DNA of 64,000 nt. Origin: Chitinophaga cymbidii (lineage in GTDB: Bacteria; Bacteroidota; Bacteroidia; Chitinophagales; Chitinophagaceae). The DNA lies in contig NZ_BKAU01000001.1 in the NCBI RefSeq assembly GCF_007992715.1, positions 1,240,001-1,304,000 of the forward strand, in the 5' to 3' direction. Position 1 is the first letter of the stretch. Each line of letters begins with the position of its first letter. Positions 35,306 to 64,000 of the stretch are shown piece after piece. Under the pieces are notes generated by a model. That model had not been told where the DNA came from and ran no database searches. It saw only the letters and a list, made by a program, of their open reading frames with translations. Position numbers and translations under genes: made by a program.

Positions 35306-36663
35306 TCATCCAGACCGAACACCGGTTTCCTGTTCAGCCAGCGCCCCCGTGTGAAGTCGGGGATATACTGCACCGCGCCGCCTTCGGCAACCGACTGTTC
35401 GCTCAGCGGTGTGATGGCGTACCAGGTAGCCAGGTCGTATACGTCCAGCGCGTAGGGCGCGCCGCGTTTTACGCTTTCTACGAAAGAGTTGATCACGTAC
35501 CAGTCCATTCCGCCATGCCCTGCTCCGGCAGCGTCTTTGGAATAGCGCTTCCAGAGGGGATGATCGTATTTGTCCAGGTAGCTGTCCGCTTTCTCCCAGG
35601 TATGCGGCTTGCTTTTGCCTTCCACGTAAATGGATTGCTGATCGTCCATCCACAGGCCGTTCGTGCCCTGCACCCGGAAGTTCAGGGAATAGGGGCGCGG
35701 GGAATTGGTATCGTGGGAGAGGATGATCGTTTCGCCGTTGCTGGTCTGGATAAGGGTGCTGACGATATCGCCGAGCTTGAAGCCGACCTTCGCATTCGGA
35801 TGATCTTCGCCGCCGTGGTCCACAATGTATTTGTGCAGGCCGCGGGATTTGGTGGCCATCGATGTAAGCGTCATCAGGCGGTTGCCGCGGTTCAGGTTGA
35901 TGAGGTTCCCCACCGGCCCGAGGCCGTGCGTGGGATAAAGATCGCCGTTGCGGTGCACCGAGTGATTGGTACGCCAGCGGGCTTCTGACAGCGCTTTCTC
36001 GCCAAATTCCACGCCACCGCCGTAATACTGTTTGCCATTGTTGAATTTCACTTCGCGGAGGTCATGCTGGTAGCCGCCCTGCAGGTGGATCAGCTCACCG
36101 AACAGCCCCTGCCGCGCCATATGCAGCACCGCCATCACATCACGGCGGTAACAAACGTTTTCCATACCGAACAGCGGAACGCCGGTGGCTTCGCTGGTGT
36201 TCACCAGCTCCCAGCATTCCTGCACGTCCGCCGCGCCACATACTTCCACCGCGGGCGTTTTGCCGGCTTTCATGGCGGCTACGGCCTGGATGGTATGCCA
36301 TTCCCAGGGCGTGGCGATGATCACGGCATCCACATCATCGCGCTTCAGGAGATTGTGAAAATCTTCGGGGCCGTTGGTGTATTCCGCTACTTTCTTTGTT
36401 GCGCCGTATGCCTTGGCAATGTATTCCCGTGCAATAGGAAGCGTGTACGCCGTATCCGGGTCCGCGATGGCTACTACCTCAACATCGTCGCGGCGCAGGC
36501 AGAGATCGAGGTGCCCGAGGCCCCGCGCACCCACGCCGATCAGTCCGATCCTTACTTTCGCCTTCTTTTCAGCGGCAAACATTTTCGCCGGCGTTTGCAG
36601 CAACGAAAGCCCGAGGCCCGCCGCTGCCGTGTCCCTGATAAATTTCCTTCGTTTCATCATCAA
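35296..36663 (-). CDS. Tat-exported Gfo/Idh/MocA-fold protein, GH109-like
   Basis: The 455-residue protein starts with a twin-arginine signal (MKRRKFIRDTAAAGLGLSLLQTPAKMFA). A Rossmann domain (VRIGLIGVGARGLGHLDL) follows, with IIATPWEWHTIQAVAAMKAGK and VEVCGAADVQECWEL in the usual places. The later blocks HGGMDWYVINSFVESVKRG and DVYDLATWYAITPLSEQSV match the GH109 subgroup, where NAD-dependent alpha-N-acetylgalactosaminidases occur. It is the last gene of PUL 3, three bases after the acetyltransferase-like gene. Its signal suggests export already folded with the nucleotide. Oxidation of another sugar remains possible. Confidence 0.85.
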   Translation of the reverse strand: MMMKRRKFIRDTAAAGLGLSLLQTPAKMFAAEKKAKVRIGLIGVGARGLGHLDLCLRRDDVEVVAIADPDTAYTLPIAREYIAKAYGATKKVAEYTNGPEDFHNLLKRDDVDAVIIATPWEWHTIQAVAAMKAGKTPAVEVCGAADVQECWELVNTSEATGVPLFGMENVCYRRDVMAVLHMARQGLFGELIHLQGGYQHDLREVKFNNGKQYYGGGVEFGEKALSEARWRTNHSVHRNGDLYPTHGLGPVGNLINLNRGNRLMTLTSMATKSRGLHKYIVDHGGEDHPNAKVGFKLGDIVSTLIQTSNGETIILSHDTNSPRPYSLNFRVQGTNGLWMDDQQSIYVEGKSKPHTWEKADSYLDKYDHPLWKRYSKDAAGAGHGGMDWYVINSFVESVKRGAPYALDVYDLATWYAITPLSEQSVAEGGAVQYIPDFTRGRWLNRKPVFGLDDQY

Positions 36664-54416: not shown

Positions 54417-54448
54417 ATTGATGTTACAGATATTTTGTACTAGTTTTG
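54417..54448 (+). promoter_or_regulatory. Promoter of the GntR/FadR-type regulator gene
   Basis: ATTG at 54417-54420 (three of four bases of TTTG) and TAGTTTTG at 54441-54448 (exact -7 box) are 20 bases apart. Transcription would begin near 54455, inside the operator at 54455-54467 and only about nine nt before the ATG at 54464. Confidence 0.5.
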
Positions 54449-54454
54449 CAAACA

Positions 54455-54467
54455 TCAGATGATATGA
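54455..54467 (+). promoter_or_regulatory. Operator of the GntR/FadR-type regulator (self-control site)
   Basis: TCAGATGATATGA overlaps the predicted transcription start and the start codon. It equals the perfect palindrome TCAGATGATCTGA found before the downstream MFS gene except at one base. Occurrence at both promoters identifies it as the likely binding site of the regulator encoded here. Confidence 0.6.
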
Positions 54468-55138
54468 TGAATACACAGATACATCCTTTAAAGCGCAGGA
54501 ACCTGGCGGATGAAGTGGCCGGACGGCTACAGCAGGTCATTTGCTCCAGCCAGTATAGCGTGGGCCAGCAACTGCCCACAGAGCCGGAGCTGATGCAGCA
54601 ATTCGGCGTTGGGCGGTCTACCATCCGCGAAGCGGTACGGTTGCTGGTGAATGCGGGACTGGTGCGCGTGCAGCAGGGACTCGGGACTTTCATCATGTCG
54701 CAGCACGCCATGGCGGAGCCGCTGGCGCAACGGCTGCACCGCGCGCATTACCAGGACCTGAACGAGGTACGGCTGTTGCTCGAGGTGAAGATCGCGGAAA
54801 AGGCCGCGCAGAACAGAACGAAAGAAGACCTCGCAAAAATGAGGGCCTTCCTGAAACAGCGCTACGAACATGCCAAAGCGAATAACATCGACGCCTGCAT
54901 GCAGGCGGACATCAATTTCCACAGCAGCGTGGCGGAAGCATCGGGGAACGAGATCATGGTGGACCTTTACAAGACCATCGCCACACATTTGAAGCAATCG
55001 TTCTCCGAACGTTTTGCGGACACTTCGAGTTTCCTGGAAACACAGCACCTGCACAAGTCGCTGCTGCAAAGCATTGCAGACAAAGATCCCGCCCAGGCGC
55101 TGCTATGGTCTACCCGCATCAGCACACATACGAAATAA
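54464..55138 (+). CDS. GntR-family (FadR subfamily) transcriptional regulator
   Basis: The product of about 224 residues starts at one of two adjacent ATGs (54464/54467). The winged HTH is NLADEVAGRLQQVI, QLPTEPELMQQFGVGRSTIREAVRLLVNAGLVRVQQGLGTF in pieces; the C-terminal FCD helical domain (about 80-224) contains DINFHSSVAEASGNEIM and metal-type histidines. The ligand is probably a small organic acid or sugar acid. It is followed 36 bases later by an MFS transporter that shares its operator sequence, so it should control that transporter and itself. Confidence 0.92.
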   Translation: MMNTQIHPLKRRNLADEVAGRLQQVICSSQYSVGQQLPTEPELMQQFGVGRSTIREAVRLLVNAGLVRVQQGLGTFIMSQHAMAEPLAQRLHRAHYQDLNEVRLLLEVKIAEKAAQNRTKEDLAKMRAFLKQRYEHAKANNIDACMQADINFHSSVAEASGNEIMVDLYKTIATHLKQSFSERFADTSSFLETQHLHKSLLQSIADKDPAQALLWSTRISTHTK

Positions 55139-55156
55139 TTTTTTTGCATACAATCA

Positions 55157-55169
55157 TCAGATGATCTGA
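55157..55169 (+). promoter_or_regulatory. GntR operator upstream of the MFS transporter
   Basis: TCAGATGATCTGA is a perfect 13-base palindrome (odd centre G) located six bases before the ATG at 55175. Occupation here would block initiation. See the sister site at 54455-54467. Confidence 0.65.
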
Positions 55170-55174
55170 CAACA

Positions 55175-56413
55175 ATGGAAACTATTGCTTTAGAAGAAGA
55201 ACAAAAAACAGCGGCCCAGCAGCTCGCTGAAAAAACCGTTTTCTCTGTGTTGCTGGCGCTCAGCTTCACGCATCTGCTCAATGACACGATACAGTCCCTC
55301 ATCCCCGCGATCTACCCGCTGGTAAAGGACTCCCTGCAGCTGAGCTTCTCCCAGGTGGGACTGATCACCCTTACCTTCCAGCTTTCCGCCTCCATTCTGC
55401 AGCCGCTGGTAGGGCTGTATACGGATAAACGGCCGCAGCCCTACTCGCTCGCTATCGGCATGGGATTCACGCTGGCCGGGCTGATCTGTCTTTCCCTCGC
55501 GCATCACTTTGCCATTGTGCTGGTATCTGTGGCGCTGGTGGGCGTGGGTTCCGCCGTATTCCATCCCGAAGCGTCCCGGCTGGCCTATATGGCTTCCGGC
55601 GGCAGGCATGGCATGGCGCAATCGCTCTTCCAGGTAGGCGGTAACACCGGCAGCTCGCTGGGGCCCCTGCTCGCAGCCGCCATCATCGTGCCGCTCGGGC
55701 AGTTTCACATCATCTGGTTTTCGGTGATCGCGCTCATCGCCATCGTGGTGATGCTGCGGATCTGCAAGTGGTACCTGCGGAACACCCACCGCATCAAACC
55801 GAAAAAGAAAGCGGTCGCCCAGGTGGAGCGCGTGCAGCTCTCCCGCGGCAAGGTGATCTTTGCGCTGGTGATACTGATGCTGCTGATCTTCTCGAAATAC
55901 TTTTACATGGCCAGCCTCACCAGCTATTATACTTTCTACCTGATGGACAAATTTCATGTATCCGTGCAGAGCGCGCAGGTATACCTGTTCGTGTTCCTCT
56001 TTGCGATCGCGGCGGGCACCTTCATCGGCGGGCCGGTAGGCGACCGCATCGGCAGGAAATATGTGATCTGGATCTCCATCCTGGGCGTGGCCCCGTTCGC
56101 CCTGCTGATGCCGCATGTGAATTTATTCTGGACGGCCATATTGAGCGTGTTCATCGGCGTGATATTGTCATCGGCCTTCTCCGCCATTCTCGTATATGCG
56201 CAGGAGTTAGTGCCGGGGAAAGTGGGGATGATCGCGGGATTGTTCTTTGGATTTGCTTTCGGGATGGCGGGCATCGGATCTGCGCTGCTCGGAGAGCTGG
56301 CGGACAGAACGAGCATTTATTATGTCTACGAGGTTTGTGCTTACCTGCCGCTGATCGGGTTACTGACGGGTTTTCTGCCGAATATTGAAGGGAAGCGGAA
56401 AGCGGCGCGATAG
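55175..56413 (+). CDS. MFS transporter, fosmidomycin-resistance (Fsr) family
   Basis: The 412-residue product has 12 predicted transmembrane helices. Fsr-type features are FTHLLNDTIQSLIPAIYPLVKD split over helix 1, GIGSAVFHPEASRLAY-like VGVGSAVFHPEASRLAYMASG, and QSLFQVGGNTGSSLGPLLAA. The loop between helices 6 and 7 is basic (HRIKPKKKAVAQVE). The physiological substrate is unknown; the adjacent FadR-type regulator suggests a small organic acid or related compound. A strong terminator follows. Confidence 0.9.
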   Translation: METIALEEEQKTAAQQLAEKTVFSVLLALSFTHLLNDTIQSLIPAIYPLVKDSLQLSFSQVGLITLTFQLSASILQPLVGLYTDKRPQPYSLAIGMGFTLAGLICLSLAHHFAIVLVSVALVGVGSAVFHPEASRLAYMASGGRHGMAQSLFQVGGNTGSSLGPLLAAAIIVPLGQFHIIWFSVIALIAIVVMLRICKWYLRNTHRIKPKKKAVAQVERVQLSRGKVIFALVILMLLIFSKYFYMASLTSYYTFYLMDKFHVSVQSAQVYLFVFLFAIAAGTFIGGPVGDRIGRKYVIWISILGVAPFALLMPHVNLFWTAILSVFIGVILSSAFSAILVYAQELVPGKVGMIAGLFFGFAFGMAGIGSALLGELADRTSIYYVYEVCAYLPLIGLLTGFLPNIEGKRKAAR

Positions 56414-59768: not shown

Positions 59769-59800
59769 AAGGCTGACATTCATTTGTCAGCCTTCTTTTT
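59769..59800 (+). terminator. Intrinsic terminator of the DEAD-box helicase gene
   Basis: AAGGCTGACA (59769-59778) and TGTCAGCCTT (59785-59794) form perfect 10-bp arms with a six-base loop, followed by CTTTTTTT. The hairpin also includes the stop codon of the convergent minus-strand gene, so both genes end in the same structure. Confidence 0.88.
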
Positions 59801-61199
59801 TATACACCGTGGTATCCGTTGCCAGCACCGGCATCGTGTAGCCCCCGGTATCGATCCTCGTTTCCGGCAACGCTTGCTGCAGCTGGCTGATCGCTGTGGC
59901 AGGCACAGCGGTTTTATAGATGAACAACTCTCTCAGTGCTTTGTTCCGCTGCAACGCGAGCACGCCTTTGTCACTGACCTTTGTACCCACGAGGCTCAAA
60001 TACCGCAGCTGTTTACAATCCGCCAATACCGGCAAACCCGCATCCGTAACGGCGGTATACTCAAGGTGCAAACGGGTGAGCTGCGGAAGCTTCGCCAGTA
60101 CCTGCAAAGCGGAATCACCCACCTGCGTGCCGGTGAGCTTCAACCACACGATCTGCGATTTCAGCGGCAGCAGCAAATCCGCATCCTTATTGGAAAACCC
60201 GGAAGCGTTCACGCAATTGATCATCACATAATTGCTGCCGGCAGCCACCGGCATCACTTTCACACCGATCGCTTCCAGCGCTTCGCGGGCCTGATCATCC
60301 ACGGGGCCGGGCGTGGTTTCCGGTATGAACGGGTGATCGCCTGTGCCGGAGGGCTGCATGGCTTCCAGCACCAGCTGTATGCGCGGGGATTTCTGCAGTT
60401 CTTTTACTTTGGCCGTAGTGGAAGCGCCCTGCTCGATCCACCAGTAAAGTATTTCCACCTGCTGCGGCGTCAGTTGCGGTTTGCCTTTGGGCGGCATCCG
60501 GTTGTCGTCGTTCTCCGGGAGGATCAGGCGCTTGTACAGTTCGCTGGCTTCAGGCAGGCTGTCTTTCAGCACGGGGCCATTCTCGCCGCCTTTCCTGATA
60601 TGTTCCATTCCATCCAGCCGCAAACCGCCTTTCAGCTTTTGTGCATTGTGGCAGCCGTAACATTTCTGCTCCAGGATGGGCTGCACCATATCATCATATA
60701 CTTTTGCATCGGGGATGCTGGTGATGGATGCGGTCTTTGGGAGTTGACGGCCGGGCAGGGCGGCGGTGAGGTAATCATCGCCATGCGTGAGCGAACCGCC
60801 ATAGTGGCCGGCGGCGGACAATAATACGATCATCACTCCCGACAAGGGAAACCATAACTTTTTCAGAACGGCCATGCGGTGCAGCACACACAGCAGCACG
60901 GCAATAACGGCAACGCCTATACCGAGCCACTGATGCAGGGCCAGCGCATCGTCCTCATATCCGCCGGAGAGCGAAAGCAAATATCCCGCAATGCAGGAGA
61001 GCACGGCGGACAGGGCGCCGAATATCATTACGGGCAGTACGGCGGCGGACAGGAAAGCAAGGCGCTTTACTTTACTCAGCCCTTCGAGGATGAAGGCGAT
61101 CATCAGCATGCCGATGGGCAGATGCACCAGTAACGGATGAAATCTTCCAAAAAACAAGCCCCAGCTTCCCTGGCCGGCTATCTGCAATAAATTCATCAT
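59787..61199 (-). CDS. Membrane protein with DUF2231-like helices, planctomycete-type cytochrome c and LRR-like repeats
   Basis: The 470-residue protein has four to five transmembrane helices (HPLLVHLPIGMLMIAF, VLPVMIFGALSAVLSCIAGYLL, WLGIGVAVIAVLLCVL, FPLSGVMIVLLSA). These lead to a periplasmic cytochrome c domain with the heme motif CYGCH at 180-184 and a likely axial Met in MPPKG (235). From about 330 to 440 it has four LRR-like units (LTRLHLEYTAVTDAGL, LRYLSLVGTKVSDKGVL). The start overlaps the stop of the TIM-barrel gene by four bases, indicating coupling. It is inferred to pass electrons from a secreted sugar oxidation step to the respiratory chain. Confidence 0.85.
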   Translation of the reverse strand: MMNLLQIAGQGSWGLFFGRFHPLLVHLPIGMLMIAFILEGLSKVKRLAFLSAAVLPVMIFGALSAVLSCIAGYLLSLSGGYEDDALALHQWLGIGVAVIAVLLCVLHRMAVLKKLWFPLSGVMIVLLSAAGHYGGSLTHGDDYLTAALPGRQLPKTASITSIPDAKVYDDMVQPILEQKCYGCHNAQKLKGGLRLDGMEHIRKGGENGPVLKDSLPEASELYKRLILPENDDNRMPPKGKPQLTPQQVEILYWWIEQGASTTAKVKELQKSPRIQLVLEAMQPSGTGDHPFIPETTPGPVDDQAREALEAIGVKVMPVAAGSNYVMINCVNASGFSNKDADLLLPLKSQIVWLKLTGTQVGDSALQVLAKLPQLTRLHLEYTAVTDAGLPVLADCKQLRYLSLVGTKVSDKGVLALQRNKALRELFIYKTAVPATAISQLQQALPETRIDTGGYTMPVLATDTTVYKKEG

Positions 61200-62095
61200 C
61201 CTTTACCGTATCGCGATTTAAAAAGTTTCATCATGTGCACATTGATATCCCATTGATTGGCGAGCGGCTGCCGGGTATAAGGCACGGTGGGCATGTAATC
61301 CGGCGGGCCGAATTCCGTGAGCACCGTCAACGTTTCGCCTTTGGTCTGTTTCTGTTTCACGATCTCATCCCACCAGGCGAAATGCGCTTTCAGGGCGGGC
61401 TCCCATTCCGGCGCACGCGGATCGCTGACCTGCGGGCCTTCCGGATGGCCTACACGCGCGTGTATGTGCCCCGCGCGGGCAAGCGCCATCGCCACGGTTT
61501 CCGGCTGGTCCTGCAGCAGGGATTCGTGCACGTTGCACCAGTGTGAAATGTCCAGCGTCAGGCGGAGGTCCGGTTTTGCTTCGATGAACTGGCGTGTGAT
61601 GTGCGCGGCGAACAGCATGCGCGAGCGGTGGGTTTCGTGGTAGATGGGGATGTTGGTTTGTTTGGAAATGCGGGTGGTGATATCGATCAATTTGCAATTC
61701 TGTTCGAACGAAAAATAATCTTTCCCCGAATGGCAGTTGATGTACACCGGGCGCTTGCGTTTTTGGGAAGTGGCGGCTGTGAGCGCCGCTTCGAAGGATT
61801 CCGCATGCTTCGTGTATTCATTGCTGTTACCACTGCACAGGAATCCCACTTCCAGCCCATATTTGTCCAGCGCCGCAAAAAGCGCATCGTCATTCTTCCA
61901 CCACACTTCAATACCGTCGTATCCCGCTTCTTTGGCGCGTTTACAATATTCGTCCATCGAATAGGGGAAGCCCCAGTTGGTGGCCATCACGAGCAGCCGG
62001 AAGCCGGGCGCCGCGCTGTGCGCGAAAGATGGTAATAAGGAGGTGGCGCCCAGCAGGGCGGATTGTCTGAGGAAATTCCTTCTGTCTATTTGCAT
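61196..62095 (-). CDS. Tat-exported sugar phosphate isomerase/epimerase-like TIM barrel
   Basis: The 299-residue product starts with a twin-arginine signal (MQIDRRNFLRQSALLGATS). It is followed by an AP-endonuclease-2-type barrel: AKEAGYDGIEVWW, INCHSGKDYFSFEQ, PIYHETHRSRML, LRLTLDISHWCNV, HIHARVGHPEGPQ and LTEFGPPDY. His/Glu/Asp residues in these strands are the expected metal ligands. Such secreted proteins act on free sugars or keto-sugars. It lies between DUF1501 (two bases) and the cytochrome gene. Confidence 0.88.
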   Translation of the reverse strand: MQIDRRNFLRQSALLGATSLLPSFAHSAAPGFRLLVMATNWGFPYSMDEYCKRAKEAGYDGIEVWWKNDDALFAALDKYGLEVGFLCSGNSNEYTKHAESFEAALTAATSQKRKRPVYINCHSGKDYFSFEQNCKLIDITTRISKQTNIPIYHETHRSRMLFAAHITRQFIEAKPDLRLTLDISHWCNVHESLLQDQPETVAMALARAGHIHARVGHPEGPQVSDPRAPEWEPALKAHFAWWDEIVKQKQTKGETLTVLTEFGPPDYMPTVPYTRQPLANQWDINVHMMKLFKSRYGKG

Positions 62096-62097
62096 GT

Positions 62098-63591
62098 TCA
62101 GCCTAATATTTCATTGATGACACGTCCTTCCACGTCCGTTAACCGGAATGGACGGCCCTGGAACTGGTAGGTAAATTTTTCGTGGTCGAAGCCCAATTGC
62201 TGCAGGATGGTGGCGTGGATATCGTGCACGGAGGTTTTTCCTTTTACAGCGCTGAAGCCGATCTCGTCGGTTTCGCCCCAGCTGCCGCCCCTGCGTACGC
62301 CGGCGCCGGCCATCCACATGGTGAACGCTTCCGCGTGATGATCGCGGCCCATGTAGGGCATCTCCTTGCCGTCGCGGTTCTCCTGCATCGGGGTGCGGCC
62401 AAATTCGCCGCCCCATACCACCAGCGTTTCATCCAGCAGGCCCCGTTGCTTGAGATCCATCAGCAGCGCGGTCATCGCTTTATCGATCTCGCGGCATTTG
62501 TTGCGCAGGCCGTATTCGATAGAGGTATCTTCATTGGTCCCGTGCGCATCCCACCCCCAGTCGAACAGCTGCACGAACCGGACGCCTTTCTCCACCAGCT
62601 TGCGCGCCAGCAGGCAATTGTTGGCAAAGGATTCCTGGCCGGGCTGTGTGCCGTACAGCTCATGGATGTAAGCGGGCTCGTTGCTGATGTCCATTACGCC
62701 GGGCACGGAGATCTGCATTTTGTAAGCCAGCTCGTATTGTGAGATGCGGGATAATATTTCGGGATCTTTAAAAGTTTCGTATTCCTGTTTGTTGACTTCA
62801 TTGATCGCCTGGATGGACTGGTAGCGCATATCGCGGTCCATTCCCTCCGGGTCGGTGATATACAGCACGGGATCGCCTTTGGAGCGGCATTGCACGCCCT
62901 GGTATACGGAGGGCAGGAAACCGCTGCCCCACACGCTTTTACCGGCATCGGGCGTTTTGCCGCCGGAGGTGAGCACTACGAATCCCGGGAGGTTGCTGTT
63001 CTCGGAGCCTAACCCGTAGGTGACCCATGATCCGATACTGGGCCTGCCGAGCCGGGCGCTGCCGGTGTGCATGAACAATTGTGCGGGGCCGTGGTTGAAC
63101 TGGTCCGTATGCACGGCTTTCAGAAAGCTCACATCATCCGCCACCTTCGCAAAATGCGGCAGGTGATCGCTCACCCATGCGCGGGATTCTCCATGTTGTG
63201 CAAACACCGCCTGCGGGCCGAGCATCTTCGGTACGCCGCGGATGAATGCAAAACGTTTGCCTTCGAGGATGGAGGGCGGGCAGAGCTGGTTGTGCAGCTT
63301 TTGCAGGTCCGGCTTGTAGTCGAACAGTTCCAGCTGCGAGGGGGCGCCGGCCATGTGCAGGTAGATCACGCTGCGGGCGCGTGCCGGGAAATGCGGGGCG
63401 CGCGGCTCCAGGGGGTTCAGGCTCTGCGGCATGCCTTCTTCCCCGGATTCTCCGGAGAACAGGTTGCAGCCGCCCAGCAGGGAGCCCAGCGCGGTAGCGC
63501 CGAGGCCGGTCATGCAGTTGTGCAGGAAATGGCGGCGGGAAAAATATTTCGCGGCCCGCTCATTAGCCTCTTGTATGATTTTTTCAGACAT
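62098..63591 (-). CDS. DUF1501-family secreted protein
   Basis: The 497-residue protein has a Tat-like signal with SRRHFLHNCMTGLGATALGSLLGGC, where the cysteine may also be a lipidation site. Family blocks include FPARARSVIYLHMAGAPSQLELFDYKPDL in two parts, WVTYGLGSENSNLPGFVVL, VRFVQLFDWGWDAHG, LVVWGGEFGRTP and GRDHHAEAFTMWMAGAGVRRG. The fold is alkaline-phosphatase/sulfatase-like, but the role is undefined. DUF1501 genes almost always accompany DUF1553/PSCyt genes, as here. Confidence 0.9.
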   Translation of the reverse strand: MSEKIIQEANERAAKYFSRRHFLHNCMTGLGATALGSLLGGCNLFSGESGEEGMPQSLNPLEPRAPHFPARARSVIYLHMAGAPSQLELFDYKPDLQKLHNQLCPPSILEGKRFAFIRGVPKMLGPQAVFAQHGESRAWVSDHLPHFAKVADDVSFLKAVHTDQFNHGPAQLFMHTGSARLGRPSIGSWVTYGLGSENSNLPGFVVLTSGGKTPDAGKSVWGSGFLPSVYQGVQCRSKGDPVLYITDPEGMDRDMRYQSIQAINEVNKQEYETFKDPEILSRISQYELAYKMQISVPGVMDISNEPAYIHELYGTQPGQESFANNCLLARKLVEKGVRFVQLFDWGWDAHGTNEDTSIEYGLRNKCREIDKAMTALLMDLKQRGLLDETLVVWGGEFGRTPMQENRDGKEMPYMGRDHHAEAFTMWMAGAGVRRGGSWGETDEIGFSAVKGKTSVHDIHATILQQLGFDHEKFTYQFQGRPFRLTDVEGRVINEILG

Positions 63592-63596
63592 GTTCG

Positions 63597-64000
63597 TTAC
63601 GATTTGGATAAGAACTCGTCCAGGTTCATGATCGCATTGGCCACTACCGTGAGTGCCGCCAGATGCGCCAGGTCCGGCCGTTTTTCCTCCTGCAGGAAAG
63701 CTGTGGCGGCCTCCGGATCTTCCCGGAACTTCGCCAGCGCCTGCGTATACAATTTTTCCAGCACGGCCAGCTTTGCCAGCGTGATGTCTTTATACATCGC
63801 CGCCTTATAACCTGAACGAATACACGCTTTTTGATCGGCGGCGCCTGCTTTGTTCATATTAACAGCGAGGTGCCGCGCTGCTTCCACGTACACGGGATCA
63901 TTCAGGGTGACCAGCGCCTGCAAAGGCGTGTTGGTGCGTATCCTGCGCTGCAGGCATACCTCGCGGCTGGAGCCGTCGAAGGTGACGGCGGAGGGATACG
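63597..64000 (-). CDS. DUF1553-family protein, C-terminal part (start beyond window)
   Basis: The frame is open to the window end, so only the last 134 residues are seen. The motif TNTPLQALVTLNDPVYVEAAR is the signature of DUF1553, normally preceded by PSCyt1/DUF1549 domains with a heme-binding site. The closing ANAIMNLDEFLSKS is also typical. It is first gene of the visible minus-strand operon, five bases before DUF1501. Such proteins are large secreted cytochromes linked to sugar oxidation in Planctomycetes and Bacteroidota; the role is inferred. Confidence 0.85.
   Translation of the reverse strand, partial: YPSAVTFDGSSREVCLQRRIRTNTPLQALVTLNDPVYVEAARHLAVNMNKAGAADQKACIRSGYKAAMYKDITLAKLAVLEKLYTQALAKFREDPEAATAFLQEEKRPDLAHLAALTVVANAIMNLDEFLSKS

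Follow-up and report, generated by a model that had tools for sequence, protein, structure and literature searches.

PSCyt genes have been described in Planctomycetes and Verrucomicrobia, and the sections of He et al. 2017 that treat them (PMC5615132) suggest a carbohydrate role for the PSCyt proteins, so a sugar link of these proteins is not new. Action on mono- or oligosaccharides in the cell has been proposed there for the planctomycete PSCyt1/PSCyt2 genes, in which PSCyt and PSD domains are joined in one protein, carbohydrate-binding modules (CBMs, CBM_6 included) are present in some, and the neighbouring genes are conserved (PMC5615132, same sections). A four-gene cassette that resembles them in these respects lies at the right end of a 64,000-nucleotide stretch of the Chitinophaga cymbidii genome (assembly GCF_007992715.1, contig NZ_BKAU01000001.1, positions 1,240,001 to 1,304,000), here called the window, and its operon runs on past the window edge. 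It belongs to the PSCyt/DUF1501 gene set, with PSCyt1, DUF1549 and DUF1553 in one protein and a DUF1501 gene adjacent. Unlike the planctomycete genes, this Bacteroidota cassette has a DUF2231-cytochrome-leucine-rich repeat (LRR) partner, a TIM barrel exported by the twin-arginine translocation (Tat) route, SusC and SusD genes beside it, a modular third slot, and a fused form. The reading that we tentatively prefer is that the cassette encodes a periplasmic or exported, membrane-wired sugar-oxidation set that would feed respiration.

For Caulobacter, LacABC and DUF1080 proteins have been proposed to make up a periplasmic 3-keto pathway, and in Pedobacter a gene for a lactose dehydrogenase is important (PMC9007349, in the part that concerns these bacteria). 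The likeness of the cassette to this 3-keto-glycoside pathway would lie in membrane-bound periplasmic oxidation and in sugar epimerase genes nearby (PMC9007349, same part), but its operon has no LacABC-type or DUF1080 gene and instead encodes a DUF1549/1553 protein with two CxxCH motifs. As in SusC/SusD polysaccharide utilisation loci with an extracytoplasmic function (ECF) sigma factor and FecR, genes for sigma factor, anti-sigma factor, SusC and SusD lie directly upstream on the same strand, but the cassette locus has no glycoside hydrolase (GH) gene and the cassette is probably transcribed separately. No paper that names both DUF1501 and DUF1553 was found in the PMC literature, where DUF2231 is mentioned in one paper, and no description of the four-gene cassette was recognised in the literature searched, which was mostly open-access (PMC).

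Conservation and modular organization of the cassette

A scan of named genomes with a TIM-barrel profile gave 508 relatives. The 80 best-scoring ones were retained; being chosen for TIM similarity, these loci are biased towards close relatives. All four genes are found together in 74 of the 80, so their association is not due to chance. The TIM gene precedes the DUF2231 gene in 65 of the complete loci (56 plain, four with a second DUF1553 gene, three double cassettes and two with broken frames) and is last in nine, all from Dyadobacter; the remaining six named loci comprise two cut by contig ends and four with the TIM gene alone. The cassette of Chitinophaga sp. E66 (L105) looks decayed, its DUF1553 and DUF1501 genes being split into several frames. 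Within the family, the DUF2231-cytochrome-LRR protein has matches in 73 of 147 genomes at E 1e-3 (50 at 1e-50, by hand count), and the TIM profile matches 48 of 298 genomes of the order at 1e-40. Twenty family loci were taken with their flanks and overlap the named loci in at least four genomes; the four genes stand in order in 16 of them, some with extra genes between, while by our own gene calls L044 and L047 lack the TIM gene, L036 the DUF1553 gene, and L041 both the DUF1553 and DUF1501 genes.

The third slot of the cassette is occupied by a TIM barrel or an NHL propeller, or is empty (L003, L146-L165). In three scanned loci a single polypeptide of 807-843 amino acids (aa) beside the DUF1501 gene comprises DUF2231, PSCyt1, DUF1549 and DUF1553 (L146:4450-6981, L148:5881-8319 and L149:5902-8325), and L147 has the same four-domain fusion as judged by layout; this fusion is the best evidence that the membrane cytochrome of the window works with the DUF1549/1553 protein. 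C. cymbidii itself has a second cassette, of the NHL type, about 254 kb away (L003:3549-19999) and beside a SusC/SusD-like pair. L003 also adjoins a PhyH gene and two GYQGWF-bearing genes, one of which was scanned and matched GH99 below the cut-off. The genome, of 6.6 Mb, has four PSCyt1 matches in total.

The DUF1553 lipoprotein

The four genes (DUF1553, DUF1501, TIM barrel and DUF2231) lie on the minus strand, and recomputed gene positions confirm the spacings of 5, 2 and -4 bases given in the preliminary description of the window, made from its sequence. The identities that it gave them (DUF1553, DUF1501, exported TIM barrel and DUF2231-cytochrome-LRR) also hold, the TIM (PF01261) and LRR models falling below the Pfam cut-offs. 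The window contains only a 133-aa fragment of the first protein (DUF1553/PSD1, E 2e-15 by Pfam), whose gene extends to window-equivalent position 66338. The full 913-aa protein has a lipobox-like start, two CxxCH motifs (CISCH and CVQCH), and Pfam matches to DUF1553 (E 7.5e-95), DUF1549/PSCyt2 (1e-87) and PSCyt1 (1.7e-14); both heme motifs and a CBM6-type insert are encoded beyond the window edge and so lay outside the view of the preliminary description. Two CxxCH motifs are present in 50 of 50 aligned relatives, and the N-terminal cytochrome resembles FoxE by sequence profile (5mab, E 4.7e-9).

The insert between DUF1549 and DUF1553 is of the CBM6 type in TIM cassettes (sequence profile against 2v4v, E 2.2e-4). 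An AlphaFold2 model of the L054 relative (pLDDT 81.7, pTM 0.83) gave as its best eight isolated CBM6 chains in Foldseek matches with E 1.0e-5 to 2.3e-5 and TM-scores of 0.73-0.77 by target length; among the 50 matches listed of 1404, the 19 with E at or below 0.001 are CBM6-type chains or enzymes presumed to bear such modules. The insert position is occupied by Laminin_G_3 in the NHL-type cassette L153, and by alignment the insert is missing from the L003 protein. PDB searches that started from the single DUF1553, DUF1501 and TIM sequences were uninformative, and profile searches did better.

The DUF2231-cytochrome-LRR membrane protein

Pfam places PSCyt1 (E 1.6e-12) and DUF2231 (E 1e-7), both above cut-off, in the 470-aa protein. 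LRR models remain below it, and the LRR assignment is backed by PDB sequence matches and by the fold of an AlphaFold2 model (pLDDT 88.5, pTM 0.59), whose 50 Foldseek matches listed of 772 in the PDB are of the LRR kind by title. Pfam, PDB matches and model are thus at one with the earlier proposal that DUF2231 helices, a CYGCH cytochrome c and LRRs are joined in one membrane protein. One CxxCH is present in 58 of 58 aligned relatives, in which H21, H26, H89, H132, H139, C180, C183, H184 and M235 are invariant, Met235 being a candidate axial heme ligand. Five of the six histidines in the first 145 residues are invariant in these 58 sequences, compared with 16 of all 145 columns (P 5e-5, uncorrected for relatedness). 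In the model they sit where helices 1 and 3 begin and helix 4 ends, and therefore on one face, the cytochrome side, which loop charges suggest is periplasmic.

One DUF2231 paralogue encoded in the C. cymbidii genome carries a Rieske domain in the same polypeptide (E 4.3e-18; L232:5623-6519), and a relative also has a DUF2231-Rieske [2Fe-2S] fusion (L201:65-916), so DUF2231 recurs with redox domains; by eye, the Rieske-fused forms keep only part of the histidine set. Heme b is one reading of the histidine site. Copper is another, because two DUF2231 proteins with the full set (L215:1249-1947 and L219:1459-2070) adjoin what by eye are heavy-metal-transport-like genes. These same two proteins could be taken to mean that DUF2231 binds copper or another metal and that the cassette works in heme handling or in a respiration tied to metals, the sugar genes being chance neighbours. 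This account is made quite improbable by the CBM6 or Laminin_G fold inside the DUF1553 protein, the conserved putative ligands of the TIM barrel, and the SusC/SusD and glycosidase neighbours.

The DUF1501 protein

Short proteins were excluded from the motif counts, which left 76 of 79 DUF1501, 79 of 80 TIM, 77 of 86 DUF1553 and 74 of 80 DUF2231 proteins. An RRxF motif lies within the first 80 residues in all 76 DUF1501 relatives. Against nine sulfatases of the same genome, the DUF1501 profile aligns by hhalign over 93 columns of its C-terminal part only (E 2.6e-5, probability 74.7), and its PDB matches, weak (E 0.2-2.3) and all to one stretch, are phosphate- or sulfate-transfer enzymes with one unrelated WD40 chain among them. 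The protein is thus like the sulfatase/alkaline phosphatase superfamily in those C-terminal columns, but where sulfatases have a CxPSR-type site the DUF1501 family has, by eye and in a region that hhalign did not reach, the invariant N166-H167-x-P169-A170 (NHxPA). It was therefore not taken for a formylglycine sulfatase, the C/S-x-P-S-R site being absent and Asn-His standing at the presumed site in place of Cys or Ser. Sulfatase maturation, named in the preliminary description as a role to which neighbouring genes might point instead, was rejected as well: sulfatase genes were looked for in the operon and none was seen, and DUF1501 has no CxPSR site.

The TIM barrel

Of 79 TIM relatives, 72 also have the RRxF motif among their first 80 residues; further motifs of this set are HE[TS]HR and DxSHW (79/79 each) and HxHxRxG and [TP]EFGP (78/79 each). 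As a sequence pattern, the protein matches E-D-H-E with a DxxH motif, which we take to be the metal-ligand pattern of PF01261 isomerases and epimerases, and the TIM residues are accordingly listed as putative ligands (Table 1). Its closest relatives are proteins of Chitinophaga sp. SYP-B3965 and C. niabensis (78-79% identical); the best PDB match of its profile, 8z1i (Art22, E 8e-4), says little. A TIM paralogue encoded in the same genome lacks an export signal; its gene is flanked directly by SusD on one side and, on the other, by a GH106 alpha-L-rhamnosidase gene that is followed by GH28 (L231:6992-7813). The neighbours of the TIM-only loci L103 and L106, ClpB and tRNA-synthetase genes, give no functional hint.

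Among 41 chosen neighbours of TIM relatives outside cassettes (11 loci, L233-L243), PhyH was found seven times, major facilitator superfamily (MFS) transporters six times and RhaT once. The PhyH dioxygenase-like genes hint at oxygen chemistry feeding the TIM step; two CCP_MauG di-heme peroxidase matches occur among the 71 scanned operon neighbours described below, and in He et al. 2017 PSCyt genes tended to higher abundance in genomes from the epilimnion (PMC5615132). Such findings would fit a chain that runs in reverse or has another purpose, in which quinol electrons drive a reductive, peroxidase-like or oxygen-activating reaction of DUF1549/1553, for example oxidative glycan cleavage. We consider this unlikely, since the MauG and PhyH links are few and we know of no catalytic residue set for DUF1549/1553.

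The proposed keto-sugar pathway

The preliminary description further proposed that the operon might be a complete periplasmic keto-sugar pathway and that sequence beyond position 64000 be inspected for dehydrogenase or DUF1080 genes. This was not borne out: the operon contains neither, and past the edge the same strand has, upstream of the cassette, only SusD, SusC, FecR and ECF sigma factor genes (Pfam), with a small convergent open reading frame (ORF) between. No DUF1080 (PF06439) hydrolase gene was found in the locus, and Pfam and profile scans of the cassette/SusCD locus found no carbohydrate-active enzyme gene beyond the TIM barrel and the CBM6-type insert; in the next 20 kb (L002) the search covered DUF1080 and GFO/IDH/MocA. 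The other elements of the preliminary description are supported, namely the export of the proteins, the cytochrome in the membrane and the link to sugars, the last by SusC/SusD upstream, the CBM6 fold and glycosidase genes beside some relatives. The idea of redox chemistry on sugars is plausible and gains support, but the complete keto-sugar pathway is absent from the locus.

Across the genome there are 15 DUF1080, 25 GFO/IDH/MocA, 5 GMC and 4 Gluconate_2-dh3 matches, none of them in the operon. GMC and Gluconate_2-dh3 proteins are subunits of sugar 3-dehydrogenases in Caulobacter-type systems, and their genes lie side by side in places (C1 1.82 Mb, C5 0.92 Mb and C6 0.30 Mb), so a keto pathway could be assembled in trans. 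The cassette would then supply only the electron outlet and downstream enzymes, with a separate exported sugar 3-dehydrogenase (LacABC- or GFO/IDH/MocA-like) and DUF1080 encoded elsewhere. This main rival, which we regard as rather unlikely, draws on that wealth of genes, on the Caulobacter LacABC/DUF1080 proposal and the importance of the Pedobacter lactose dehydrogenase (PMC9007349, in the part cited above), and on L051, where a Tat-type exported GFO/IDH/MocA protein and a lipoprotein-like DUF1080 protein (3-keto-disaccharide hydrolase) are encoded within the cassette, between the DUF1553 and DUF1501 genes. However, L051 is an exception, because home-made profiles, for which one ORF was selected by position at each own-genome match, find DUF1080 near the cassette in one of 20 family loci and none of 80 named loci, and GFO/IDH/MocA in three of 20 and two of 80; the two named loci have it on the opposite strand. 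The nearest DUF1080 gene of C. cymbidii itself is also about 75 kb from the cassette, and the nearest GFO/IDH/MocA match about 23 kb (window 36172-36555).

Sugar-related neighbours

An adjacent SusC/SusD pair is present at the C. cymbidii cassette locus, and by gene cluster 11 of the 80 named loci have SusC/SusD beside the cassette. Operon runs were drawn for 75 of these loci, and 71 of 128 neighbour genes were scanned, the rest being mostly cluster co-members or from loci scanned under another name; of the neighbours in the 20 family loci a subset of 30 was scanned. GH95, GH29, GH2, GH109, GH88, Glyco_hydro_cc and Glycoamylase genes lie beside some relatives' cassettes, and fucosidase-type genes are co-directional in at least four of the 20 family loci (L038, L042, L046 and L051). 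Of ten Dyadobacter loci, seven contain an L-rhamnose mutarotase (RhaM) family gene, and one of the three without it is cut by a contig end. These sugar-side neighbours point weakly to 6-deoxy-L-hexoses. A gene of an AraC-type cluster (one member scanned) precedes the cassette in 17 loci, and a Barstar-family gene follows the TIM gene of a Dyadobacter cassette (L132:11001-11447), with similar genes there in other Dyadobacter loci.

Proposed function of the cassette

The sugar-oxidation reading draws on the joint occurrence and tight spacing of the four genes, the four-domain fusion, the CBM6-type or Laminin_G_3 module, the invariant histidines, the Rieske fusion of the DUF2231 paralogue and the sugar-related neighbours. 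Computation shows which genes and domains are present, the motifs for heme and export, the CBM6 fold, the fusion and the conservation; to these the reading adds steps that we infer, namely heme binding, the direction of electron flow, catalysis by DUF1549/1553, the substrate and the quinone contact. A TonB-type importer would bring oligosaccharides into the periplasm, where the two-heme PSCyt1-DUF1549-DUF1553 lipoprotein would bind carbohydrate through its CBM6-type insert and either oxidise it or accept electrons from a nearby sugar dehydrogenase. The hemes of this protein would hand electrons on to the PSCyt1 heme in the DUF2231 protein. Through its membrane part, which has a His-rich site near the presumed periplasmic face, the latter would exchange electrons with the quinone pool. 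The oxidised sugar would be isomerised, epimerised or cleaved by the Tat-exported TIM barrel; in some versions this sugar may be a 6-deoxy hexose, for example L-rhamnose or L-fucose. DUF1501 may act as an alkaline-phosphatase-superfamily-like partner.

Several observations weigh against this reading. The TIM barrel matches PF01261 at E 3.4e-5 with 24.1 bits, below the gathering cut-off of 31.1. For the DUF1549/1553 core of the L054 model, the 50 listed of 1404 PDB matches include no fold that we recognise, so catalysis there is a guess, and Pfam and profile scans found no sugar 3-dehydrogenase gene in the locus. Two RhaM proteins that were inspected have no visible signal peptide, whereas the TIM barrel is exported. 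In 23 of 75 loci the co-directional run, as drawn here, contains no further gene, and many of the scanned neighbours are not sugar-related, among them ion channel, efflux, MMPL, EamA, amino-acid permease, PKD, peptidase, beta-lactamase-like and Barstar genes. The cassette is probably its own transcription unit, apart from SusC/SusD, because some 1 kb of DNA, in which the convergent ORF and a hairpin resembling a terminator are found, separates it from SusD.

The literature supplies further points of this kind. The original study on DUF1501 clusters in Planctomycetes-Verrucomicrobia-Chlamydiae (PVC) bacteria with intracellular membranes is reportedly that of Kamneva 2012. The relevant portions of two other sources place DUF1501 gene clusters preferentially in PVC bacteria with such membranes and do not link them to sugars (PMC4960237, PMC4452313), a PSD1-PSC2 gene of Rhodopirellula baltica is connected in the portion that mentions it with stress and a stress-induced ECF factor, a redox role and not sugars being suggested (PMC2754498), and the densities of PSCyt and GH genes are inversely correlated (r = -0.62) in the sections of He et al. 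2017 cited above (PMC5615132). A role in membrane organisation or stress, as suggested for the Planctomycetes relatives, would make the sugar parts of the cassette incidental and appears very improbable given that carbohydrate-binding folds are built into the DUF1553 protein. Chitinophaga and its relatives are, to our knowledge, not known for intracellular membranes either.

A broader form of the sugar-oxidation reading, which must be called doubtful, holds that DUF1549/DUF1553 proteins are carbohydrate oxidoreductases of a new, heme-dependent class that has a fold of its own and a built-in, interchangeable carbohydrate-binding module, and that DUF2231 is a new membrane redox module linked to quinone. 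Together with DUF1501 the two would make up a common respiratory core, which the third slot, whether filled by a TIM barrel or an NHL propeller or left empty, would fit to a given sugar. If DUF1549/1553 proteins do oxidise sugars, glycans would also be broken down by an oxidative route that has gone uncounted, in addition to the action of hydrolases, lyases and lytic monooxygenases. The cassette would give a testable job to protein families so far without one, and since it is compact, occurs in cultured Bacteroidota genera, includes a membrane partner and a protein resembling sugar enzymes, and comes with candidate substrates, the question is open to experiment.

Locus layout and transcription signals

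Table 1. Positions of cassette features and flanking signals, in window coordinates or, where marked, in coordinates of locus L001
Feature	Position	Strand	Details
Perfect 10-bp stem at operon end	59769..59794 (L001 3770-3795)	both	terminator-like; hairpin scan
470-aa membrane protein	59787..61199	-	DUF2231 (20-138), PSCyt1 cytochrome c, LRR (about 300-450)
CYGCH heme c motif	60648..60662	-	residues 180-184; translation
DUF2231 four-helix membrane part	60786..61142	-	helices 21-41, 45-76, 83-109, 113-139 (model); hydropathy
299-aa Tat-exported xylose-isomerase-like TIM barrel	61196..62095	-	putative metal ligands E154, D182, H210/H212, E261 (invariant columns)
497-aa DUF1501 protein	62098..63591	-	Tat motif and lipobox-like Cys42; alkaline-phosphatase-superfamily-like C-terminal part; PF07394 E 6e-151
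C-terminal 133 aa and stop of 913-aa PSCyt1-DUF1549-CBM6-fold insert-DUF1553 lipoprotein	63597..64000	-	whole gene L001:7598-10339
Hairpin then T-rich stretch	L001 10473-10450 (window-equivalent 66472-66449)		attenuator-like leader, about 110 bases ahead of DUF1553 start
Convergent 116-aa ORF between SusD and cassette	L001:10891-11241	+	helix-turn-helix-like by eye

The convergent ORF has no Pfam match at E 0.001, and ORFs in its position form gene clusters across several Chitinophaga loci. The locus scan found 16 terminator-like sites, moderately above the 10.1 (standard deviation 3.3) of shuffled sequences, and with so small an excess single sites are weak evidence; a promoter scan gave five sites where 5.3 were expected. 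At gathering scores, no Rfam family matched anywhere in the locus. Farther to the left, at window positions 54446-56413, a gene for a regulator that is GntR/FadR-like by eye and an MFS transporter gene precede DUF2490, hydrolase and DEAD-box helicase genes.

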